Shown here: positions 40,836 through 51,057 of the stretch, piece after piece | How positions within the stretch are numbered: position 1 is the stretch's first letter | Layout of the letters: every line of letters begins with the position of its first letter | NCBI GenBank assembly: GCA_016871015.1 | Contig: VFZX01000003.1 | Coordinates: forward strand, 1-64,000 | From: Acidobacteriota bacterium | GTDB lineage: Bacteria; Acidobacteriota; Terriglobia; Bryobacterales; Bryobacteraceae | Length of the DNA: 64,000 nucleotides | Reading direction: 5' to 3' | Notes under the pieces: generated by a model | The model's database searches: none | The model's input: only the letters and a program-made list of their open reading frames with translations | Told to the model about the DNA's origin: nothing | Made by a program: the position numbers and the translations under genes

Positions 40836-42041
40836 TTAGTCCGTCGTCGCAAAATAGGCACACCCGAGTGCGATCAAAAGGGCGTTTATGAAGTCGGACA
40901 GGAATCCGCCCACCAGAGGAACGATGAGGAACGCCTTGGGCGAATCGCCGAACCGTTCGCGCAGTTCCTCGAGCGCCGCCATGCTGTTGGCCGTGGTCCC
41001 GAACATGAATCCGCAATAGCCTGCCGCGATGAGTGCCGCATCGGAGTCGCGGCCTTGCGTGCGCCAGACAAGCCAGGAAAGCGCAAACGTGACGGGCACT
41101 TGCGCGAGCAGGATCAGAAAGACCGGCCCGGCAAGGCCGCGCAGTTCCCAATATTTCAGCGTCCACAGGGCAAGCGGAATGAACCAGGCGAGCGCCACCG
41201 AGCCAGCCGCCTGGCCCCATCCGGCGGGGAGGGCGAGAGCGGGCACCCGGGTCGAGCAGGCTCTCAGCAACGCAGCGACTATCATTGCCCCGATGTAGCC
41301 GGGCAGCGAAAAATGAATTCCGGCAACGCGGCCAGTCAGCATGAGGTTAAGGGCATGGCCGAGTCCCATCGCCACGCCGAACAACACCGAGACTCGAGCG
41401 AGAACCGCTCCCATCAGCGGTTCGTTCGCAAGCGGCGACGGCTGGGAAGCCGGAGCCGGTCGCTCCGCTGGCTCCGGTGAGCTCCGCGCGATCAGGAATG
41501 CGCCGAAAGCGCTGCTCACCACGCCCGCGAACAGGATGCCAGCGAGCGCGGATCCCATGGCCACGGAGGCTGCGCCGCGAGCACCGGCCTCCTCGAAACT
41601 CAGTCCAAAGGCCAGGCTCGTGGCCGGCCCACCGGCCAACGCCATTCCGCTAGCGGCGATTCCGAGCAGCGGGTCAAGGCCCTGCGAGCGCGCCACCGCC
41701 ACGCCCGTCACGTTCTGCGCGATCGCGCCCGCGGCGAACATCGCCAATAGCCGCAGCATCGGCGCGCCGCCGCGCCGTAAGGCCTCGATGTCCAGGCTGA
41801 AGCCAATCGAGGTGAAGAAAGTGACCATAGCGAGGTTCTGAATGGTCGAGTCGACCACCAACTCGAAGTCGATGGCGCGCAAGGCGAGCGTTATGGCGGC
41901 GAGCAGAAATCCGGCGACGATCGAGGAGGGAATCGACCAGCGGCGCAGGAACACGAGCCGCGAGTGCAGTGCGTTGCCCGCGGCAATGGCGATGGCGCCC
42001 GAGCCCAAAACCCACAGGCTGTTTACGGCAAGCGTTCGCAT
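40836..42041 (-). CDS. gltS: Sodium/glutamate symporter
   Basis: A 401-residue membrane protein of the GltS family, with about ten helices. Family features are NLAMVTFFTSIGFSLDIEAL near residue 75, GIAASGMALAGGPATSLAFG near residue 130 and the second-half repeat CGFMFGTTANSMAALEELRE near the C-terminus. It imports glutamate with sodium. It starts 17 bp after the last mgd gene and so ends that operon. Glutamate is the carrier molecule of the N-methylglutamate cycle, so its presence fits that pathway. Confidence 0.85.
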   Translation of the reverse strand: MRTLAVNSLWVLGSGAIAIAAGNALHSRLVFLRRWSIPSSIVAGFLLAAITLALRAIDFELVVDSTIQNLAMVTFFTSIGFSLDIEALRRGGAPMLRLLAMFAAGAIAQNVTGVAVARSQGLDPLLGIAASGMALAGGPATSLAFGLSFEEAGARGAASVAMGSALAGILFAGVVSSAFGAFLIARSSPEPAERPAPASQPSPLANEPLMGAVLARVSVLFGVAMGLGHALNLMLTGRVAGIHFSLPGYIGAMIVAALLRACSTRVPALALPAGWGQAAGSVALAWFIPLALWTLKYWELRGLAGPVFLILLAQVPVTFALSWLVWRTQGRDSDAALIAAGYCGFMFGTTANSMAALEELRERFGDSPKAFLIVPLVGGFLSDFINALLIALGCAYFATTD

Positions 42042-42058
42042 GGGGCCTCGCGCGAGCC

Positions 42059-43273
42059 TCAGTGGGAGACCGCAGCGGCCGCCTTTTCGCCGAGCAGCTT
42101 CCCGGCGCGGAAACGAGCGGGAGTGAACGGCGCGATGATCCCGGGTGTGCTGCCTGTGGCGATCATTTCGGCCGTGAACTTGCCGGCCGCCGGCGCCGCC
42201 TTGAATCCGTACGTTCCCCAGCCGACGTTCATGTAGAAGCGGTCCACCTCCTCGGCGCATCCGATGATGGGTGCGAAGTCCGGTGTCATATCGCAGATGC
42301 CGCCCCACTGCCGCAGCACGCGGATGGCATGCAACTGCGGGAACAACTCGAGCGTGTAGGTGGCCATCTGCTCGAGCGTAGGCAGCGTGGCTCGCATGTT
42401 GTAGGACTGGTAGGGATCGATCTCGGCTCCGATCACGAGTTCGCCCTTGTCGGTCTGATTGACGTAGACGTGCAGTGTCGCCGAAACAATCACGTGATGT
42501 AGGAACGGCTTCAGAGGCTGCGTGACACAGGCCTGCAAAGGATAGGAGACGATCGGTAACGGCACTGACACCATGTCGGAAATCGTCGTGGCCCAACCGG
42601 CGGTGCAGTTCAACACCGTTTCGGTGGCGATCTCGCCGCGATTCGTGACGACGCTCTCAATCTTACGGCCGTTGCGCCGGATGCCCGTCACTTCGGTGTC
42701 AGTATGGATCTCGATGCCCATCCGGTCGCAGGCGCGGGCGTAGCCCCACACCACCGCGTCGTGGCGGATGACGCCGCCCGGCGGATGGTACAGCGCAGCC
42801 AGGATCGGGTAGCGGGCGCGATCGCTGAGATCCATGCCCGGGACCAGGCGGCGGATCTCGCCGAGGTCGATGAGGCGGCTGTCGACTCCCATCAATTGGT
42901 TGTTTTCAGCACGGACGCGCAAACCCACGATGCCCGCGTCTGAGTGTGCCAGCGTGAGGTGGCCGCACTGGCTGAACATTACGTTCCACCCTAGTTCCTC
43001 GGACATTTGTTCGTAGAGCTTGACCGAGGCATCGTAAAAAGGGATACCTTCGGGCGTACGGTAGTTGGAGCGCAGGATGGCGGTGTTGCGGCCGCTGTTG
43101 CCGCCGCCCAGGTAGCCCCGGTCCAGCAGCGCCACGCTACGCACGCCGTGCAACTGGCCCAAGTGGTAGGCGGTCGAAAGTCCGTGCACGCCGGCGCCCA
43201 CGATGACGACATCATACCGGCGGCGGAGATCGTGAGAGCGCCACATTCGTTCTTTGCGAAGCAGGGAGAACAT
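42059..43273 (-). CDS. mgdA: N-methylglutamate dehydrogenase subunit A (sarcosine oxidase beta-like)
   Basis: The protein has 404 residues, a DAO-type flavoprotein of the heterotetrameric sarcosine oxidase beta class. The FAD-binding motif is YDVVIVGAGVHGLSTAYHLG, followed by GGNSGRNTAILRSNY. GGVIRHDAVVWGYARACD near residue 170 is the region that in sarcosine oxidase carries the covalent flavin. It would demethylate N-methylglutamate to glutamate and formaldehyde. Choice of substrate rests on context: mgsABC and gmaS are divergent neighbours, and no glycine or one-carbon genes typical of sarcosine operons (glyA, purU) are present. It starts 4 bp after the gamma subunit. Confidence 0.78.
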   Translation of the reverse strand: MFSLLRKERMWRSHDLRRRYDVVIVGAGVHGLSTAYHLGQLHGVRSVALLDRGYLGGGNSGRNTAILRSNYRTPEGIPFYDASVKLYEQMSEELGWNVMFSQCGHLTLAHSDAGIVGLRVRAENNQLMGVDSRLIDLGEIRRLVPGMDLSDRARYPILAALYHPPGGVIRHDAVVWGYARACDRMGIEIHTDTEVTGIRRNGRKIESVVTNRGEIATETVLNCTAGWATTISDMVSVPLPIVSYPLQACVTQPLKPFLHHVIVSATLHVYVNQTDKGELVIGAEIDPYQSYNMRATLPTLEQMATYTLELFPQLHAIRVLRQWGGICDMTPDFAPIIGCAEEVDRFYMNVGWGTYGFKAAPAAGKFTAEMIATGSTPGIIAPFTPARFRAGKLLGEKAAAAVSH

Positions 43274-43277
43274 GCTG

Positions 43278-43775
43278 CTATAGAGCCTCCAGGGCGCTTG
43301 GCTCGACCGGCGTCAGATGGTACTCTTCACCCGCGTGAAGCAACGCCTCCCAAACATATTGGCCGTAGTCTCGCGCGACCAGCAGATGGAAGGCCGGGAC
43401 CCCGCCACGATCGTCGCGCAGCACGATGCAATGCGTGTGGGCGAGCGAGGTCTGGCCGGAAGCTCCGTCGGGGAGCGCGCGGTCGCTCACATTCAGCGAA
43501 GTCAGCTTCGACAGAATGTCGCGCGCTCGCGGTCCGATGAGCAGAAAATCGGCGTAGACCGAGGTGACATCGATCGTATAGACGGCGCTCTGCGGGAATG
43601 CGCAATGGATCGGCGGCTTTCCGGTGAGAAGCGCGCGAGTGCGTGCCAGACGCCAGATCCGGCAGCCTACCGGTGGCGTGAGATCGCCGGCCACCGCGAA
43701 CCCTTGCAGTTCGATTCTGGCGAGCCATGTGCATCGAACCAAGCCCGCCGATGCGCGGATCGGTGAGTCGGTCAC
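43278..43775 (-). CDS. mgdD: N-methylglutamate dehydrogenase subunit D (sarcosine oxidase gamma-like)
   Basis: A 165-residue subunit of the SoxG kind, with the aminomethyltransferase-like fold. Recognisable stretches are VTSVYADFLLIGPRARDIL and HIEDNT-type hydrophobic alternation toward FHLLVARDYGQYVWEAL. It overlaps the alpha-subunit gene by 4 bp (ATGA) and lies 4 bp before the beta-subunit gene. It is a structural subunit without a redox motif. Confidence 0.72.
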   Translation of the reverse strand: MTDSPIRASAGLVRCTWLARIELQGFAVAGDLTPPVGCRIWRLARTRALLTGKPPIHCAFPQSAVYTIDVTSVYADFLLIGPRARDILSKLTSLNVSDRALPDGASGQTSLAHTHCIVLRDDRGGVPAFHLLVARDYGQYVWEALLHAGEEYHLTPVEPSALEAL

Positions 43776-46396
43776 TGGCGGAGCCGGCCCCCTTCCGGAT
43801 CATGGAAGGCGGCCTGTTTCACCAGCGCCTGGACTAGCCGGCCGCCGCTGCGTATGGCAATTGCCGAGCCCTCCGCGGCATGATCCACCGGGACCCAGGC
43901 CATGCCGATGGTCCGCTGGCGCACCGGCGAATAGCGGGCGCTGGTGACTCGTCCCACGGGGCGGCCGCCGAGGACGACTGGCGCGCCGTCGTCAGGCAGG
44001 GTATCGTCCTGCATCTCGAAGCCGACCAGGCTCTCTCGCGGAGGCGCCTGCGAAGCCTGCGTGAGCGCGGCGCGGCCGACGAAATCGGGCTTATCGAGGC
44101 GAGCCACCCACGTCATGCCGGCATCGATCGGCGTGGTGAGGGCATCAGTGTCGACACCTACGATCACGTGTTTCTTCTCGAGCCGCAATAAGCGCTGCGC
44201 TTCGATCCCGAAGGGCCGGATATCGAATTCGGCCCCGGCCTTCATTAGAGCCTGCCAGACCTTCGGCCCTTCCTCGGCCGGGCAGTGGATCTCCCAACCC
44301 GTCTCACCCACGAAGCCGATGCGCACCAGCAGCGATCGCACACCCGCCACCTCCGCCTCCCGGCAACCCATATAGGGGAACGACTCGCTCGACAGATCGC
44401 AGTCCGTGATCTTGCGCAGCGTCTCGCGAGCCTTGGGTCCAGCCAGGTTCACGGCCGCGAAACCGGAGGTCATATTCGTGAGCCAGGCGTCCCAACCCGT
44501 GCCCGCCAGCCACCAGCGCAGCCACTGGTCGACGAACTCGAGGTTGCCAGTGGTCGTGCTGATGAAATAGCGGTCGCCGGCGAGCGCCGCGATCGTACCG
44601 TCATCGAGAATCACACCGGACTCGTCACAGATGACGGCGTAGCGCACGCGCCCCGGTTTGAGGTCCGAGAACCGGTGCGTATAGACCTTGTCGAGCAGCT
44701 TGCCTGCATCCCTTCCCTGCAGAATCAGCTTGCCGAGCGTGCTCACGTCAATGAGTCCCACGCGTTCGCGAACGGCCTGATACTCGGCCCGTACGCACGC
44801 CGTTTCGTCGCCGCTCCCGGCGCGGTAGTAGCGGGGACGCTTCCAATCGCCCATGTCGAGCCACACGGCCCCGAGTTGTTGGTGCTCGTCATGCATCGGC
44901 GTACGGCGAATGGGGTGATGGCGGGGACCCGCCAGCGCTCCCAGGCTCACCGGCGGATTGGGTGGGCGAGAAGTGGTGACGCCGGTGGCGTCCATCGAAC
45001 GGCCGGTCAGTCCGGCGCAGATTTCGACGGCGGCCAGTTGGCACATCCGGCCTTGGCAGGGTCCCATGGTCGTGGTGGTGTAGCGCTTCAACGTCTCGAT
45101 ATGATCGAATCCTTCGCGGACGGCGCCGTCGAGATCGGCAGTGGTCACGTCGCTACAGACACACACGAACGAGCGCTTGGAAGCGCCGCCGCGGTTGGCC
45201 GGTGTGCCCGCGAGGCCGGTGCCACACACCGAACCCACGGCCGAGACATTCGGCGGCAGACCCGTGGGCAGGAAAGCTCCGTGCGCCTGGTTCCAAACGA
45301 GTTTGGCGCCCGCTTGAGCCAGTAGTCCCGCATCCGGAACGAGTGGCCCGCAAATTACCAGCAGGTCACACGGAATGCTTCCCGTATCGGTTTTCACTCC
45401 GGTAACACAGTGGCCGCCGGACGCCGAGCGAATCGCTGCTGGCTCGACCACGCCCGCGATACGTACTCCGGCGTTCTTCAAGTCCGCCACGACGCCGGCG
45501 GCTCGCGGACCGCCGCCCACCACGACGGCCGTCGCCGCGGGCTTGATGCCATGCAGCCGGATCAGCCGCTGCGCTGCCGTCGACAGCATCACGCCCGGCA
45601 GGTCGTTGTTGGCGAAAACCAGCGGTGTTTCGTATGCGCCCGCCGCTACCACGACGTGGCCGGCCCGCAAGTGAATCAGACGCTCCTTCACCGCGCCATG
45701 CGGATTGGGTTGCAGCACCCCCAGCAGATTGCCTTCGAACAGACCGAAGCAGTAGCTCCGGCTCAACACCCGGACACCAGCCTCGTTGGACACGCGCTCG
45801 CGAACTGCTGCCAGGTCTGCGGCCGATGACTGGTAGCGGGCGCGACCGCCGAGCGAAGGTTGATCGTCGATGAGCACAACACTCGCGCCCCGGCCTGCGT
45901 ATTCCAGCGCCGCGGCCATACCGGAAGAACCGCCGCCCACGACGGCCACCTCCGCGTGCCACCAAGCGTGTTCGTACTCGCCTTTGATTTCGTCTACGCC
46001 AGGAGGCTCGCCCAGCCCCGCTACCGCGCGAATGTGCGGTTCCACCATGTGCCACAGTTTCAAGCTGCGGAAGACCTTGTAATACCAGCCCACCGGCATC
46101 AGGAAATCGAAGTGCTGCGCGGCGCTCAGCGCATCCGTCTCGAGAGACGGCCAGGCGTTTTGGTGCCTGACCACCATGCCCTCGCGCGCCGGGGTCACAC
46201 AGGCGGGCATGTTGGGAACGCCGTTGACGTTTACCAGGCAGTTGGGACAACGTCCGGCGGCGCAGAGCAGGCCGCGCGGGCGGTGGTACTTGAAGCTCCT
46301 GCTGAAGACTCGCTGGCCCGCCCGATACAGCGCGGACCCGACGGTGTCTCCCGGCTCCGCATTGACAGAGTGGCCATCGAAATCGAACGTGCTCAC
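43772..46396 (-). CDS. mgdC: N-methylglutamate dehydrogenase subunit C (sarcosine oxidase alpha-like)
   Basis: An 874-residue subunit. The N-terminal ferredoxin-like domain has Cys45, Cys50, Cys53 and Cys66 (LCAAGRCPNCLVNVNG). A Rossmann domain follows (VAVVGGGSSGMAAALEYAG) for NAD or FAD, then a BFD-like cysteine set in VCVCSDVTTADL and MGPCQGRMC. The C-terminal 370 residues are a GcvT-like folate-binding domain (GLIDVSTLGKLILQGRD), which in the sarcosine enzyme passes the methyl group to tetrahydrofolate. It overlaps the delta gene by 4 bp and the gamma gene by 4 bp. Confidence 0.8.
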   Translation of the reverse strand: MSTFDFDGHSVNAEPGDTVGSALYRAGQRVFSRSFKYHRPRGLLCAAGRCPNCLVNVNGVPNMPACVTPAREGMVVRHQNAWPSLETDALSAAQHFDFLMPVGWYYKVFRSLKLWHMVEPHIRAVAGLGEPPGVDEIKGEYEHAWWHAEVAVVGGGSSGMAAALEYAGRGASVVLIDDQPSLGGRARYQSSAADLAAVRERVSNEAGVRVLSRSYCFGLFEGNLLGVLQPNPHGAVKERLIHLRAGHVVVAAGAYETPLVFANNDLPGVMLSTAAQRLIRLHGIKPAATAVVVGGGPRAAGVVADLKNAGVRIAGVVEPAAIRSASGGHCVTGVKTDTGSIPCDLLVICGPLVPDAGLLAQAGAKLVWNQAHGAFLPTGLPPNVSAVGSVCGTGLAGTPANRGGASKRSFVCVCSDVTTADLDGAVREGFDHIETLKRYTTTTMGPCQGRMCQLAAVEICAGLTGRSMDATGVTTSRPPNPPVSLGALAGPRHHPIRRTPMHDEHQQLGAVWLDMGDWKRPRYYRAGSGDETACVRAEYQAVRERVGLIDVSTLGKLILQGRDAGKLLDKVYTHRFSDLKPGRVRYAVICDESGVILDDGTIAALAGDRYFISTTTGNLEFVDQWLRWWLAGTGWDAWLTNMTSGFAAVNLAGPKARETLRKITDCDLSSESFPYMGCREAEVAGVRSLLVRIGFVGETGWEIHCPAEEGPKVWQALMKAGAEFDIRPFGIEAQRLLRLEKKHVIVGVDTDALTTPIDAGMTWVARLDKPDFVGRAALTQASQAPPRESLVGFEMQDDTLPDDGAPVVLGGRPVGRVTSARYSPVRQRTIGMAWVPVDHAAEGSAIAIRSGGRLVQALVKQAAFHDPEGGRLRQ

Positions 46397-46656
46397 TCGT
46401 TGTCCTCATCCGGAAACCAGGTTCGCTTCACTTCATTGCTTATCGTATTGCGAACCGCCTGGAGCCATTGCCGGCAGCCAGACCGGTGAAACCACCATTC
46501 CATCTGCTCGCCGGCCTGGTTTTTTTTCGTGTGCACGTAGCGGTACCACTCCTCTTGCGCCGCATCCGGCAGAGGCCGCTGCCTCACTTCGCCACCGAAT
46601 CGAAACTCGTAGACGCTCCGCGGCCCGCATTGCGGACAGCGCAACTGAAATGACAA
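46393..46656 (-). CDS. mgdB: N-methylglutamate dehydrogenase subunit B (sarcosine oxidase delta-like)
   Basis: An 87-residue zinc-binding subunit of the SoxD family. It begins LSFQLRCPQCGPRSVYEF (first residue read as Met) and ends with EWWFHRSGCRQWLQAVRNT; CPQC, His and Cys form the zinc site. The start is a TTG at 46656, with GAGGAGG 5 bp upstream, and gives the usual family length; longer in-frame extensions have no similarity. It is the first gene of the operon and overlaps the alpha gene by 4 bp. Confidence 0.78.
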   Translation of the reverse strand: MSFQLRCPQCGPRSVYEFRFGGEVRQRPLPDAAQEEWYRYVHTKKNQAGEQMEWWFHRSGCRQWLQAVRNTISNEVKRTWFPDEDNE

Positions 46657-46711
46657 GGGAACCTCCTCGGCGGAACCGAATTCACTTTTATAGCAGATAT
46701 CGCCGAGGCTC

Positions 46712-46739
46712 TTGCGGCAGTTGACCGCCGCTGTATACT
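46712..46739 (+). promoter_or_regulatory. Candidate sigma70-type promoter for mgsABC-gmaS
   Basis: TTGCGG at 46712-46717 and TATACT at 46734-46739 are separated by 16 bp, a good match to the -35/-10 pattern, and lie 34 bp before the mgsA ATG. In the same 117-bp divergent region the opposite strand shows TATAAA (complement of 46688-46693), a possible -10 for the mgd operon. Divergent control from a shared operator region is therefore plausible. No regulator gene is adjacent. Confidence 0.4.
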
Positions 46740-46773
46740 GGACGATTGCGAGTACAGGTGGATTCGTAACGTC

Positions 46774-47679
46774 ATGTGCGGAATCGCAGGCTATCTCCAT
46801 TTCTCCGGCGAACAGGCGCCGCCCATCGGACGCGTCGTACTCTCCATGCTCGAGGCCCTCGGTTGCCGCGGACCGGACTCGGCGGGCGTGGCGCTTTGCG
46901 GGCCGCGGCACGCAGATTCGCTGGTCTTGCGCGTGAAATTAGGAGATCATGCGGACTTCGCCGCCCGGGGCGCCGATGTCGAAGCAGCCACCGCGCGTTT
47001 TCAGGCGGGCGGGTTCACACGTACCGGACCCTATCTGCGATTCACTGTGCCGGCGGCGGGGGAATTGACGGATCTGACGCGGGCTATCGAAGCGCTGTCG
47101 CCGGATATCGAAGTGGTGAGCGCGGGCACGGCCCTGGAGATCGTCAAGCAAGTAGGCTCTCCGGCGAACCTGGAGGCGACTTATCAGGTTTCCCGGTTCG
47201 AGGGAAGTCACGGGATCGGCCACACCCGCCTGTCCACCGAATCGCGCGTCGACCTCAGTCATTCACAACCGTTCTGGGGCCACGGCTGCGCGGATCTGGC
47301 GATCGTTCACAATGGCCACATCACCAACTATCATCAATTGCGACGCCGGTACGAACAGAACGGCGTCCGCTTCTATACCGAGAACGATTCCGAAATCATC
47401 GGCATCTATCTGGCGCGCCACTTGAACCAGGGCAAGAGTCTCGAATCCGGACTGCGGGCGATGTTGCGCGACATGGACGGCTCGTTCAGTTGCCTGGCGG
47501 TCACGGCGACCGAGTTGGGCTTCATCAAGGATCCGTTCGCGTTCAAGCCGCTGCTGGTCGCCGAGACGGAGCGGTTCGTGGCCGTGGCGACCGAAGAGGT
47601 GGCGATCCGCGCGGCGATCGCGGGCGATTACACGGTGCGCGAGGCGCAGGTGAGAGAGTTCAAAGTATGGCGGAGATAA
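46774..47679 (+). CDS. mgsA: N-methylglutamate synthase subunit A, class II glutamine amidotransferase domain
   Basis: The protein has 301 residues. It begins MCGIAGYLHFSGEQ; Cys2 becomes the N-terminal nucleophile. Other family segments are RGPDSAGVALCG, GIGHTRLSTESRVDLSHSQP and LAIVHNGHITNYHQLRRR. In N-methylglutamate synthase this GlxB-like subunit resembles the amidotransferase domain of glutamate synthase and would cleave the gamma-glutamyl amide, here methylamide. It overlaps mgsB by 13 bp. The reading of the whole operon as N-methylglutamate synthase rests on its combination with mgd and gmaS. Confidence 0.82.
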   Translation: MCGIAGYLHFSGEQAPPIGRVVLSMLEALGCRGPDSAGVALCGPRHADSLVLRVKLGDHADFAARGADVEAATARFQAGGFTRTGPYLRFTVPAAGELTDLTRAIEALSPDIEVVSAGTALEIVKQVGSPANLEATYQVSRFEGSHGIGHTRLSTESRVDLSHSQPFWGHGCADLAIVHNGHITNYHQLRRRYEQNGVRFYTENDSEIIGIYLARHLNQGKSLESGLRAMLRDMDGSFSCLAVTATELGFIKDPFAFKPLLVAETERFVAVATEEVAIRAAIAGDYTVREAQVREFKVWRR

Positions 47680-48395
47680 CCCCGCTGGCAACGGTCGAGT
47701 GCGGGCAGCGGCCCATTCGCGAAATCAACCAGGAGATCAAAGCGCTCATCGCCGCGGGCCGGACCGGGATCGAACTCGCCGGGCCAGGGGCGCGCCACAA
47801 CCTCGGCGTCGGTATTGTGCAGCTGGCCCGGATCCATATCCGGGGCAGCGCGGGATATTACTGCGCCGGGCTGATCGACGGACCGGAATTCGAGGTCGAC
47901 GGGAGCGCCGGCTGGGGCTTGGCCGAGTCGATGATGAGTGGCAAGGTGGTGGTGCACGGCAACGCCGGCAACGGCGCGGCGGCAGCGATCCGGGGCGGAA
48001 CCGTGGTGATTCATGGCGACGCCGCGGCACGCCTCGGCGTGTCCATGAAGGGCGGGCTGGTGCTGGTGGGCGGCGACTGCGGCTATATGGCCGCTTTCAT
48101 GGGCCAAAAGGGAACACTGATCGTCTGCGGCAATACGGGCGAAGCCTTCGCCGATTCCATGTACGAGACGACGTGTTTTGTCGGAGGCAAAGTGGGCGAT
48201 CTCGGCACCGACGCCGTCATTGAACCTTTGTCTGAAGAAGACATCGCGATGCTCGACTCCACATTGGCCACTCATTTTTCCGCCGGAGAGCGGGCGCGGA
48301 AACCGGCGCCGCGCGCCTTCCAAAAGATCGTGGCCGGGCGAAAACTGTGGAACTTCGACAAACGCAACTGGCAGTGGTGGCGGGAGGCGCTCTAG
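47667..48395 (+). CDS. mgsB: N-methylglutamate synthase subunit B, GXGXG beta-helix domain
   Basis: A 242-residue protein resembling the C-terminal beta-helix (GXGXG) domain of glutamate synthase, also called GlxC. Repeated turns are visible: GSAGWGLAESMMSGKVVVHG, GNAGNGAAAAIRGGTVVIHG and GDCGYMAAFMGQKGTLIVCG. The subunit is structural and helps couple the amidotransferase and synthase parts. The ATG at 47667 lies inside the end of mgsA, and the stop directly abuts the mgsC ATG. Confidence 0.82.
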   Translation: MAEITPLATVECGQRPIREINQEIKALIAAGRTGIELAGPGARHNLGVGIVQLARIHIRGSAGYYCAGLIDGPEFEVDGSAGWGLAESMMSGKVVVHGNAGNGAAAAIRGGTVVIHGDAAARLGVSMKGGLVLVGGDCGYMAAFMGQKGTLIVCGNTGEAFADSMYETTCFVGGKVGDLGTDAVIEPLSEEDIAMLDSTLATHFSAGERARKPAPRAFQKIVAGRKLWNFDKRNWQWWREAL

Positions 48396-49709
48396 ATGGC
48401 TGATCCTATCTTGCAACAAAGCGGCATCTTCACTCCGGCCGTCATCGATGACATCCAAACCAAGGCGGCTTCAGGGCTCTACCAGATCCGTGGGTACGGG
48501 ACGCTCCGCCAGCGGCGCTGGGCGACCTTCGACGATTTGACATTCCTGCCGTGCTCGCTGACGCGCATTCCCCTCGAAGGGTATCGTGAAAAGTGCACCA
48601 CCGCGGTCACCCTCGGGACGCGTTACGCCAAGCGGCCCATTCAGCTCGATGTGCCGATCATGATCACGGGCATGAGTTGGGGAGCGCTCTCGCTCAATGC
48701 CAAGGTCGCCTTGGCGCGAGGAGCACGCGCGGCCGGTTCCTCCAATACTACCGGCGACGGCGGCATGCTCATGGCCGAGCGCGAAAACAGCCGCACCCTC
48801 ATCTATGAGGTCTTGCCCTCGCGTTACGGCATTAACATCCATCACATGCTGATGGCCGATGGCATCGAACTCACCATCGGCCAGGGCGCAAAGCCTGGCA
48901 CTGGGGGGCTGCTGTTGGGTAGCAAGGTCTCCGAGGTCATCGCGCGGCAACGCGATCTGCCCGCCGGTGTCGACCAGCGCAGTCCCGCGCGCCACCCTGA
49001 CTTCCTCGGACCTGATGACATGATCGTCAAAGTTGAGGAATTGCGCGAAGCCACCAACGGAGAGGTGCCGATCTTCGTCAAGATGGGCGCCAGCCGCGTC
49101 TACGACGATGTGAAGCTCGCCGCCAAGGCGGGCGCCGACGTGATTGTGGTGGATGGGATGGAAGGCGGCACTGGCGCCTCGCCAGCGATTCTTCAGGAGC
49201 ACACGGGAATCCCGACGCTCGCGGCCGTATGCGAGGCGCGCGCGGCGCTGGAGGACATGGCCTTGTACGGTGAAGTCCAACTCGTCATCGCGGGCGGCAT
49301 CCGCGATGGGGTAGACGCGGCGAAAGCGATTGCACTGGGCGCCGACGCCTGTTATATCGGAACCGCCGCGCTCATCGCGCTCAATTGCAACCGCCCGCTG
49401 CATGTTGAGGACTACGCTAAGATCGGCGCCGCGCCATACGCTTGCCATCACTGCCACACCGGTCTCTGCCCGGTGGGTGTTACGACGCAGGATCCCGAAC
49501 TGATGCGGCGCCTTCCGATTGACGAAGCGGCGGAGCGCGTCTCCAATCTGCTGCACGCAATGACGCTCGAAATTCAAATGCTGGCGCGCGCTTGCGGCAA
49601 GTCTGATGTGCGCCGCCTGGAACCCGAGGACATGGCTGCCCTCACGACGGAGGCGTCCGCCATCTGCGGCATCCCGCTTGCGGGCACGCGTAAGGTGTAC
49701 GGCCACTGA
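48396..49709 (+). CDS. mgsC: N-methylglutamate synthase subunit C, FMN glutamate-synthase domain
   Basis: A 437-residue TIM-barrel protein of the glutamate synthase FMN domain (GlxD-like). Visible are IMITGMSWGALSLNAKVALA, SNTTGDGGMLMAERE, VDGMEGGTGASPAILQEH and the cluster segment CHHCHTGLCPVGVTTQ, which matches the 3Fe-4S site of glutamate synthase. It would join the released methylamine to 2-oxoglutarate to make N-methylglutamate. It starts right after mgsB and ends 19 bp before gmaS. Confidence 0.85.
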   Translation: MADPILQQSGIFTPAVIDDIQTKAASGLYQIRGYGTLRQRRWATFDDLTFLPCSLTRIPLEGYREKCTTAVTLGTRYAKRPIQLDVPIMITGMSWGALSLNAKVALARGARAAGSSNTTGDGGMLMAERENSRTLIYEVLPSRYGINIHHMLMADGIELTIGQGAKPGTGGLLLGSKVSEVIARQRDLPAGVDQRSPARHPDFLGPDDMIVKVEELREATNGEVPIFVKMGASRVYDDVKLAAKAGADVIVVDGMEGGTGASPAILQEHTGIPTLAAVCEARAALEDMALYGEVQLVIAGGIRDGVDAAKAIALGADACYIGTAALIALNCNRPLHVEDYAKIGAAPYACHHCHTGLCPVGVTTQDPELMRRLPIDEAAERVSNLLHAMTLEIQMLARACGKSDVRRLEPEDMAALTTEASAICGIPLAGTRKVYGH

Positions 49710-49728
49710 GATCAAACCGGAGATGATC

Positions 49729-51057
49729 ATGGACCCTCGATTGAAGGCTCAATTCACCGACAAGGGAATCCGTTTTCTGCTCTGCTCGTTCGTGGAGCTG
49801 GCGGGAACGCCGAAAGCGAAACTGGTGCCGGTGACTCATCTCGAAGACACCGCCCGTGACGGTGCCGGATTTGCGGGCTTCGCGGCGGGAGACGTCAACC
49901 AGGGGCCCCACGACACCGACATCTGCAGCGTGCCGGATTTCGGGGGGCTGGCCGTGTTGCCCTGGAAAAAGGATATTGCCTGGGTGCCGGGTAACCTGCA
50001 CGTCAACGGGAGACCGTGGCCTTTCTGCCCGCGCACCACGCTGTGCCGTCACGTGGACGCGCTCGCCCAGCGCGGACTGACGCTCAATATCGGCGTCGAG
50101 CCGGAGTTCATGATTCTCGCCAAAGATGGTGAGCAAGTGCGCCCATGGGACACCCTGGACACTCTGAGCAAGCCTTGTTACGACCTCCGCGCGCTGCATC
50201 GCAATCTGGACTTGATCACAACGGTGGTGGGCGCCATGCAGGAGCTCGGCTGGCAACCCTACGCCGCCGATCACGAAGACGCCAACTGCCAGTTCGAGAT
50301 CAACTGGACCTACTCGGACGCGCTTACGACCGCGGACCGCCACGTGTTTTTCAAATGGATGGTGAAGACGCTCGCCGAGCAGCGCGGCCTGTTCGCGACT
50401 TTCATGCCCAAGCCGTTCCAGCACCTCACCGGCAACGGGTCCCACTTCCATCTCAGCCTCGCATCGGCCGCGACCGGCGAAAACGTCTTCGCCGGCGAAG
50501 AAGATCCATTGGGGCTTTCGCAAACAGCGCGATGGTTTCTGGGCGGGGTGCTCCATCACGCGCGGGGGCTCGCGGCCATCGTCGCCCCAACGGTGAACAG
50601 CTACAAGCGGCTGGTCCGCCGCGCCACGCGATCGGGGGCGACCTGGGCGCCCGTCTATGTTACCTATGGCGCTTCCAACCGCACGCAGATGATCCGCGTT
50701 CCAGGACCCGGGCGCATCGAAGTGCGCGTCGTGGACGGCGCAGCCAATCCGTACCTGACTCCAGCCGCGTTGCTGGCCGCTGGACTCGACGGGATCGACC
50801 GGCAACTGGACCCAGGACCTCCGAACACGGCCAATCTATACGAGGCGTCCGAGGAGTACCTGGTCAGCCGCAAGATCGATTTCCTTCCCGCGACACTAGC
50901 GGAAGCGCTGGACGCGTTCGCAGAAGACAGCGTCCTGCGCGGCGCCCTCGGAGAAGAGTACGCCGCCTATTACCTGGCGGTGAAGCGCCGGGAGTGGAAC
51001 GCTTATCACGAAAGCGTCAGCGCATGGGAGACGGACCGGTACCTGCTTCATTGCTGA
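49729..51057 (+). CDS. gmaS: Gamma-glutamylmethylamide synthetase (glutamine-synthetase family)
   Basis: The 442-residue enzyme is of the type III-like glutamine synthetase group. Motifs include the Mg-binding glutamate segment LNIGVEPEFMIL, the ATP/metal loop KPFQHLTGNGSHFHLSLAS and RRATRSGATWAPVYVTYG. In the N-methylglutamate pathway it ligates methylamine to glutamate with ATP. The start at 49729 is chosen over the ATG at 49723 because GGAG at 49719-49722 is 6 bp upstream of it. It closes the operon. A plain glutamine synthetase role cannot be ruled out from sequence. Confidence 0.82.
   Translation: MDPRLKAQFTDKGIRFLLCSFVELAGTPKAKLVPVTHLEDTARDGAGFAGFAAGDVNQGPHDTDICSVPDFGGLAVLPWKKDIAWVPGNLHVNGRPWPFCPRTTLCRHVDALAQRGLTLNIGVEPEFMILAKDGEQVRPWDTLDTLSKPCYDLRALHRNLDLITTVVGAMQELGWQPYAADHEDANCQFEINWTYSDALTTADRHVFFKWMVKTLAEQRGLFATFMPKPFQHLTGNGSHFHLSLASAATGENVFAGEEDPLGLSQTARWFLGGVLHHARGLAAIVAPTVNSYKRLVRRATRSGATWAPVYVTYGASNRTQMIRVPGPGRIEVRVVDGAANPYLTPAALLAAGLDGIDRQLDPGPPNTANLYEASEEYLVSRKIDFLPATLAEALDAFAEDSVLRGALGEEYAAYYLAVKRREWNAYHESVSAWETDRYLLHC

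Follow-up and report, generated by a model that had tools for sequence, protein, structure and literature searches.

A Probable N-Methylglutamate Pathway with Predicted Iron–Sulfur Sites in an Acidobacterial Genome

Genes that would singly be named for sarcosine oxidase, glutamate synthase, and glutamine synthetase lie side by side at positions 40836–51057 of a 64,000-nucleotide stretch of DNA (the window) from a soil-type acidobacterial genome. The question raised by this locus is whether these genes serve separate functions or together constitute a single route for the utilization of methylamine. The window comprises the first 64,000 of the 64,676 bases of its contig, which belongs to a draft metagenome-assembled genome (MAG) of 8.66 Mb in 720 contigs (99.7% complete, 2% contamination). 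Eight pathway genes and the gene for a GltS-like carrier are found in this region, and every reading frame is intact. The region very likely encodes a complete N-methylglutamate (NMG) pathway, as proposed in a first-pass annotation of the letters. That identification, in which the activity is predicted, was borne out by the family, tree position, and active site of GmaS, the tree of MgsC, the co-occurrence of the genes, and the conservation of their operons. The pathway itself is known; what is new is the predicted iron–sulfur form of it, which is shared by a family of clusters from several little-studied phyla.

Results and Discussion

Gene Organization and Co-occurrence

The eight genes are arranged in two divergent, tightly packed operons, in agreement with the first-pass annotation. 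Outward from about 46.66 kb, the minus-strand operon contains mgdB, mgdC, mgdD, and mgdA, followed by the gene for the GltS-family carrier. The order in the plus-strand operon is mgsA, mgsB, mgsC, and gmaS. Adjacent genes of both operons overlap by 4–13 bases or are spaced by no more than about 20 bases, and mgdB and mgsA are separated by a divergent gap of ~117 bases. The start codons were revised to 46656 for mgdB (a TTG after GGAGG, rather than 46911), 47667 for mgsB, 49729 for gmaS, and 42041 for gltS. Chance is excluded as the source of these matches by E-values down to 1e-179 and 1e-215 and by the recurrence of the same gene set in many genomes.

MgsC was detected in seven of the 396 genomes of a phylum sample, and a close MgdA (at least 57% identity) was detected in the same seven. 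These genomes span four genera and do not represent seven independent events. GmaS is above the cutoff in six of them; in the seventh (G188), mgsC-mgdBCDA occupies a 5.6 kb contig that is cut at both ends, and gmaS would be situated beyond it. The Mgd genes of genome G110 are split over contigs. At the order level GmaS was found in 12 of 200 genomes (8 of 75 genera), and nearly all members with enough contig carry a collinear mgsABC-mgdBCDA-gmaS operon. The same genes occur in one operon in Bryobacterales/Solibacteraceae, Planctomycetota, Latescibacterota, and SAR202, and a Poribacteria locus contains mgsABC and gmaS with no mgd gene within the stretch seen. Among the acidobacterial relatives scanned, the divergent layout is found in the window only; a similar layout is present in the NMG cluster of Rhizobium johnstonii 3841. 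In a short contig of one same-family genome (L178, 4396–8638), mgsABC-gmaS is present with no mgd gene between, as in the plus-strand operon of the window.

Assignment of GmaS

The score of GmaS against the NCBIfam type III profile TIGR03105 is 596 bits, above the cutoff of 469.6 bits. The best match in the PDB is the Rhodovulum GmaS (7cql), and the second is a glutamate-methylamine ligase (9qur). In the Rhodovulum enzyme, 21 residues bind ATP, glutamate, magnesium, or methylamine, and Asp177 has been proposed as the base for methylamine (PMC7948447). In an alignment, 20 of these 21 catalytic and ligand residues are kept in the window GmaS. The catalytic residues Asp177, Glu186, and Arg312 are all retained, as Asp181, Glu190, and Arg318 (numbered from the ATG at 49729). 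The position of the methylamine base, which is Asp in the window GmaS, is His in GlnA of the same genome.

The phylogenetic analysis of GmaS and MgsC that had been suggested with the first-pass annotation gave a consistent result. GmaS does not cluster with ordinary glutamine synthetases, an outcome that was named at first pass as a refutation, and joins sequences from Acidobacteriota, Planctomycetota, and Poribacteria in a clade with support of 98/95. This clade adjoins that of the Rhodovulum and other alphaproteobacterial GmaS enzymes through a branch with support of 89/98 that is not starred. The GlnA and the second glutamine synthetase of the genome fall outside the GmaS groups. The tree of MgsC supports the assignment to the NMG pathway, with acidobacterial sequences as the nearest relatives.

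Assignment of MgsABC

Separate amidotransferase, GXGXG, and FMN-domain subunits are encoded in linkage with gmaS. MgsA is 51–66% identical to members of its clade, and MgsC is 86% identical to a homologue from a Solibacteraceae MAG. From family and linkage we infer that MgsABC is an N-methylglutamate synthase. MgsC resembles GltB (1ea0, 7mfm) in its FMN domain and its [3Fe-4S] cysteine region, whereas MgsABC is split over three genes and has no central domain.

A second MgsABC-like set, with an MgsC that is 56–60% identical to that of the window and has iron–sulfur cysteines, was observed at L045, L046, L049, L053, L054, L071, L074, and L015. This set adjoins a divergent glutamine synthetase-like protein (~33% identical to GmaS), often together with a DAO-type FAD oxidoreductase. 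It is common in Actinomycetota and in alpha- and gammaproteobacterial MAGs, and both L046 and L071 contain a true NMG cluster as well. At L012 (7055–8752, genome G298), the mgsC reading frame is broken into two that overlap, probably through a sequencing or assembly frameshift.

Assignment of MgdABCD

The four SoxBDAG-like subunits are linked to mgsABC and gmaS. MgdB is 44–70% identical to its same-family relatives, and MgdD is 27–55% identical to relatives that occupy the same place in their operons; mgdD is divergent in known NMG clusters as well (PMC5023235). Four residues of MgdA (the FMN-linking His171, Arg68, Lys358, and His268) align with the beta subunit of sarcosine oxidase. MgdC contains a Fer2 [2Fe-2S] domain, an FAD/NAD domain, a BFD-type [2Fe-2S] motif, and a GcvT tetrahydrofolate domain. 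It is ~100 residues shorter than the proteobacterial protein. An assembly error behind the short MgdC was considered and rejected, since the MgdC proteins of same-family relatives are 873–885 residues in length.

Heterotetrameric sarcosine oxidase (SoxBDAG; 1vrq, 2gag) resembles the window proteins in its four subunits, its FMN-linking His, and its folate-binding GcvT domain. In contrast, the window proteins are below the NCBIfam cutoffs for soxA (717 vs 1164 bits), soxB (449 vs 529 bits), soxD (78 vs 116 bits), and soxG (35 vs 144 bits), and they form a separate clade that does not group with characterized sarcosine oxidase in the trees of MgdA and the alpha subunit. Sarcosine oxidase was rejected as a family name on these cutoffs and trees, with sarcosine kept as a rival substrate. 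The match to mgdBCDA made at first pass was sustained for the subunits and their linkage. It was not sustained for a grouping with proteobacterial MgdA, the window protein being in a separate iron–sulfur clade. The label of N-methylglutamate dehydrogenase is thus based on gene linkage and the folate domain, and not on shared descent with proteobacterial MgdABCD.

SoxBDAG-like sets without mgs genes were observed in other genomes of the phylum (L141, L142, L144, and L145), one of which (L142) has both iron–sulfur motifs; these sets likely serve other substrates. Plasmids of P. aeruginosa RW109 (L018, 28397–35271) and A. vitis (L019, 8436–15442) carry SoxBDAG-like sets together with folD-purU; of the cluster-free plasmid sets, these are most closely related to the window Mgd. 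In P. aeruginosa RW109, mgsABC-gmaS-dmm is located ~20 kb from the SoxBDAG-like set.

Predicted Iron–Sulfur Sites

Residues Cys331, Cys350, Cys353, and Cys358 of MgsC align with the [3Fe-4S] region of glutamate synthase GltB (1ea0) and are invariant in the clade. Other residues occupy these positions in the proteobacterial and mycobacterial MgsC sequences compared. A lack of iron–sulfur cysteines is a trait of the proteobacterial MgsABC enzymes compared, not one known to be required, and it does not extend to the window. MgdC has a first motif of Cys45-X4-Cys50-X2-Cys53-X12-Cys66 in the Fer2 domain and a second, BFD-type motif of Cys412-X-Cys414 ... Cys447-X4-Cys452. All eight cysteines are invariant in nine clade sequences from several phyla, whereas both motifs are missing from proteobacterial MgdC and from the alpha subunit of sarcosine oxidase. 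It is predicted that MgsC holds a [3Fe-4S] cluster and MgdC two [2Fe-2S] clusters.

The dye-linked enzymes OdhABC, HypDH, and ProDH act on other substrates and are not known to contain a GcvT folate domain or a delta subunit. These opine, D-hydroxyproline, and L-proline dehydrogenases have the same two kinds of [2Fe-2S] motif as MgdC (Cys-X4-Cys-X2-Cys-X11-12-Cys and Cys-X-Cys ... Cys-X4-Cys), and the opine enzyme is a dehydrogenase rather than an oxidase (PMC4575208). The gap between the cysteine pairs of the second motif is 32 residues in MgdC versus the 15–20 printed in the legend of that paper. Since such sites are present in glutamate synthase and in the dye-linked dehydrogenases, the iron–sulfur state is probably ancestral. 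The BFD-type motif needs just two changes on the alpha-subunit tree.

When the loci were scored jointly, most had the cysteines of both MgsC and MgdC, four proteobacterial loci had neither, and three had those of MgsC without those of MgdC. In this scoring L012 was entered without cysteines because its mgsC frame is broken, the motif being present in the alignment, and L171, L176, and L179 duplicate L031, L035, and L030. A strict coupling of the two sites did not fully hold, as the Pseudonocardia loci combine second-type MgsC cysteines with a cluster-free alpha subunit.

A tentative proposal, itself rather doubtful, is that an iron–sulfur form of the pathway operates in the Acidobacteriota, Planctomycetota, Latescibacterota, and SAR202 clusters, and probably also in Poribacteria, and that the cluster-free proteobacterial form was derived from it. 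In such a form MgsABC would be reductive, with electrons passing via the [3Fe-4S] cluster, and would convert gamma-glutamylmethylamide, 2-oxoglutarate, and two electrons to N-methylglutamate and glutamate. MgdABCD would function via its two [2Fe-2S] clusters as a dehydrogenase that forms no peroxide.

Alternative Explanations

The locus could also be read as two unrelated functions that adjoin, a sarcosine dehydrogenase for the breakdown of glycine betaine and a local glutamine synthetase/glutamate synthase (GS/GOGAT) pair for ammonium. The single proteins each match those families, every catalytic position checked in MgdA is common to sarcosine oxidase, MgsC retains the [3Fe-4S] motif of glutamate synthase, and a betaine-type transporter lies near the cluster of relative L035. 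This explanation is nevertheless improbable. Canonical GlnA and GltB are encoded elsewhere in the genome, so the window set is not simply a route of ammonium assimilation, and an ordinary GS/GOGAT role for the cluster was rejected. The Asp at the methylamine site and the proximity to characterized GmaS in the tree, the strict co-occurrence of the genes, their common operon across phyla, and the lack in the cluster of any gene for glycine betaine or dimethylglycine also argue for the NMG pathway. The missing glyA and purU, which had been cited at first pass against the use of sarcosine, make a weak argument, as purU directly follows glnT in the Rhizobium NMG cluster.

Several findings weigh against assignment to the NMG pathway. 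The MgdA tree places the window protein outside the clade of proteobacterial MgdA and sarcosine oxidase, no convincing residue that separates N-methylglutamate from sarcosine was found in the alignment of MgdA with sarcosine oxidase, and the substrate of MgdA is consequently assigned on linkage. Other members of the wider Mgd group are found in loci that lack mgs genes. AlphaFold gave a poor model of MgdC (pLDDT 66), which is uninformative on the clusters and was not used. No PurU of the window genome is above the family cutoff, and formate dehydrogenase is uncertain (562 bits vs a cutoff of 666 bits). In GmaS, the sole change among the 21 sites is at Gln175 of the methylamine pocket, which is Ala in the window, throughout its clade, and in a Mycobacterium GmaS.

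This last change bears on whether the same route might be used for another short primary amine, such as ethylamine, or for several, with methylamine a minor substrate. The family of GmaS does not fix its substrate, since GmaS-type enzymes also accept ethylamine, from which they form theanine (PMC7677707). The full GcvT tetrahydrofolate domain of MgdC is, however, suited to a methyl carbon, and the Mycobacterium GmaS with the same Ala is linked to mgsABC in clusters of a type proposed for methylamine oxidation (PMC5023230). Another amine as the main substrate is accordingly judged quite unlikely. It is harder still to credit that the cluster was misbinned into an acidobacterial genome, whether as contamination or as recently acquired foreign DNA, even in a draft MAG with this number of contigs and degree of contamination. 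The nearest relatives of MgsC, MgdA, MgdC, and GmaS in the trees are acidobacterial, mostly from the same family, and eight same-family genomes, that of the window included, carry gmaS above the cutoff. On the same contig is a CarboxypepD_reg/OMP_b-brl_4 outer-membrane gene of the kind that adjoins the cluster in L030. The acidobacterial origin suggested at first pass was confirmed by these relatives and by two related loci that match named MAGs at every base over 14 kb, the same-family locus one of Solibacteraceae and the same-order locus one of Bryobacterales.

Proposed Pathway and Its Role

The order of reactions would follow the Methyloversatilis pathway (PMC5023235). Judged from its family and active site, GmaS would catalyze the formation of gamma-glutamylmethylamide from methylamine, glutamate, and ATP. 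MgsABC would transfer the methylamine group to the alpha position to form N-methylglutamate, as suggested by family and linkage. The domains and linkage of MgdABCD are consistent with the oxidation of N-methylglutamate to regenerate glutamate, with the methyl carbon passed to tetrahydrofolate (H4F) on the GcvT domain of MgdC. Electrons from MgdC would leave through the two predicted [2Fe-2S] clusters and reduce a respiratory acceptor rather than oxygen. The methylene-H4F would be oxidized via FolD and Fhs, both of which are present in the window genome.

The cluster probably functions in the acquisition of methylamine nitrogen and in folate-linked oxidation of the one-carbon unit. Because Fae, a marker for tetrahydromethanopterin, is absent from the window genome, and because of the findings for PurU and formate dehydrogenase, the benefit is likely to be nitrogen and some energy rather than classical methylotrophy or growth on methylamine as the sole carbon source.

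The proteobacterial NMG pathway (Methyloversatilis/Methylobacterium/Rhizobiales) has the same eight genes and domains as the window. Relative to the alphaproteobacterial proteins, GmaS is about 48–50% and MgsC 53–57% identical. The Mgd genes are in the order BCDA in the window and ABCD in the proteobacterial clusters. The earlier description of the pathway as known mainly from Proteobacteria is dated; it has been reported in Mycobacterium (PMC5023230) and Binatota (PMC8262859), and further phyla were found here. The Binatota paper also counts Acidobacteria among the phyla whose genomes show some sign of methylotrophy, with the pathway not named for them (PMC8262859). No report of the NMG pathway in Acidobacteriota or Bryobacterales was found in the literature searched, most subscription papers being outside that search.

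Soils and sponges commonly host members of the Bryobacterales. If the pathway is active, some of the methylamine consumed in soil would be taken up by lineages that gene searches built on proteobacterial sequences would overlook, or whose genes they would label as those of sarcosine oxidase and glutamate synthase. The iron–sulfur form would also offer a means of probing how N-methylglutamate synthase and N-methylglutamate dehydrogenase carry out their redox steps.

Neighboring Features

The divergent intergenic region is presumed to contain both promoters; neither a sigma-70-type promoter match nor an Rfam structured-RNA match was found within it. The features of the locus are listed in Table 1.

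Table 1. Features Identified at the Locus and the Profile Matches or Positions on Which They Are Based
Feature	Position	Strand	Basis
GltS-like sodium/glutamate symporter, ~401 aa	40836..42041	-	PF03616 216 bits; ATG at 42041; last gene of operon
mgdA, SoxB-like beta subunit, 404 aa, predicted FAD/FMN amine dehydrogenase	42059..43273	-	PF01266 250 bits; TIGR01373 449 bits
mgdD, divergent SoxG/GcvT-like gamma subunit, 165 aa	43278..43775	-	PF01571 48 bits
mgdC, SoxA-like alpha subunit, 874 aa	43772..46396	-	Pfam Fer2_4, SO_alpha_A3, GCV_T, Fer2_BFD
mgdB, SoxD-like delta subunit, ~87 aa	46393..46656	-	PF04267 87 bits; TTG start after GGAGG
Divergent intergenic region	46657..46773	.	Position only
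mgsA, class II glutamine-amidotransferase subunit, starts MCGIAGY, catalytic N-terminal Cys	46774..47679	+	PF13522 69 bits
mgsB, GXGXG beta-helix subunit	47667..48395	+	PF01493 55 bits; ATG 47667 overlaps mgsA
mgsC, FMN glutamate-synthase-domain subunit	48396..49709	+	PF01645 317 bits
gmaS, predicted gamma-glutamylmethylamide synthetase, 442 aa	49729..51057	+	TIGR03105 596 bits

The GltS glutamate carrier named in the first-pass annotation does belong to the minus-strand operon and to the Pfam family, with a score over that cutoff. Its score against the NCBIfam equivalog profile TIGR00210, 217.3 bits, is under the cutoff of 310.75 bits. No GltS homologue was found near the other clusters scanned by tblastn of relatives. 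In relative L031 (17940–19226), an ammonium-transporter gene is located just past gmaS, and its product is a candidate methylammonium importer.

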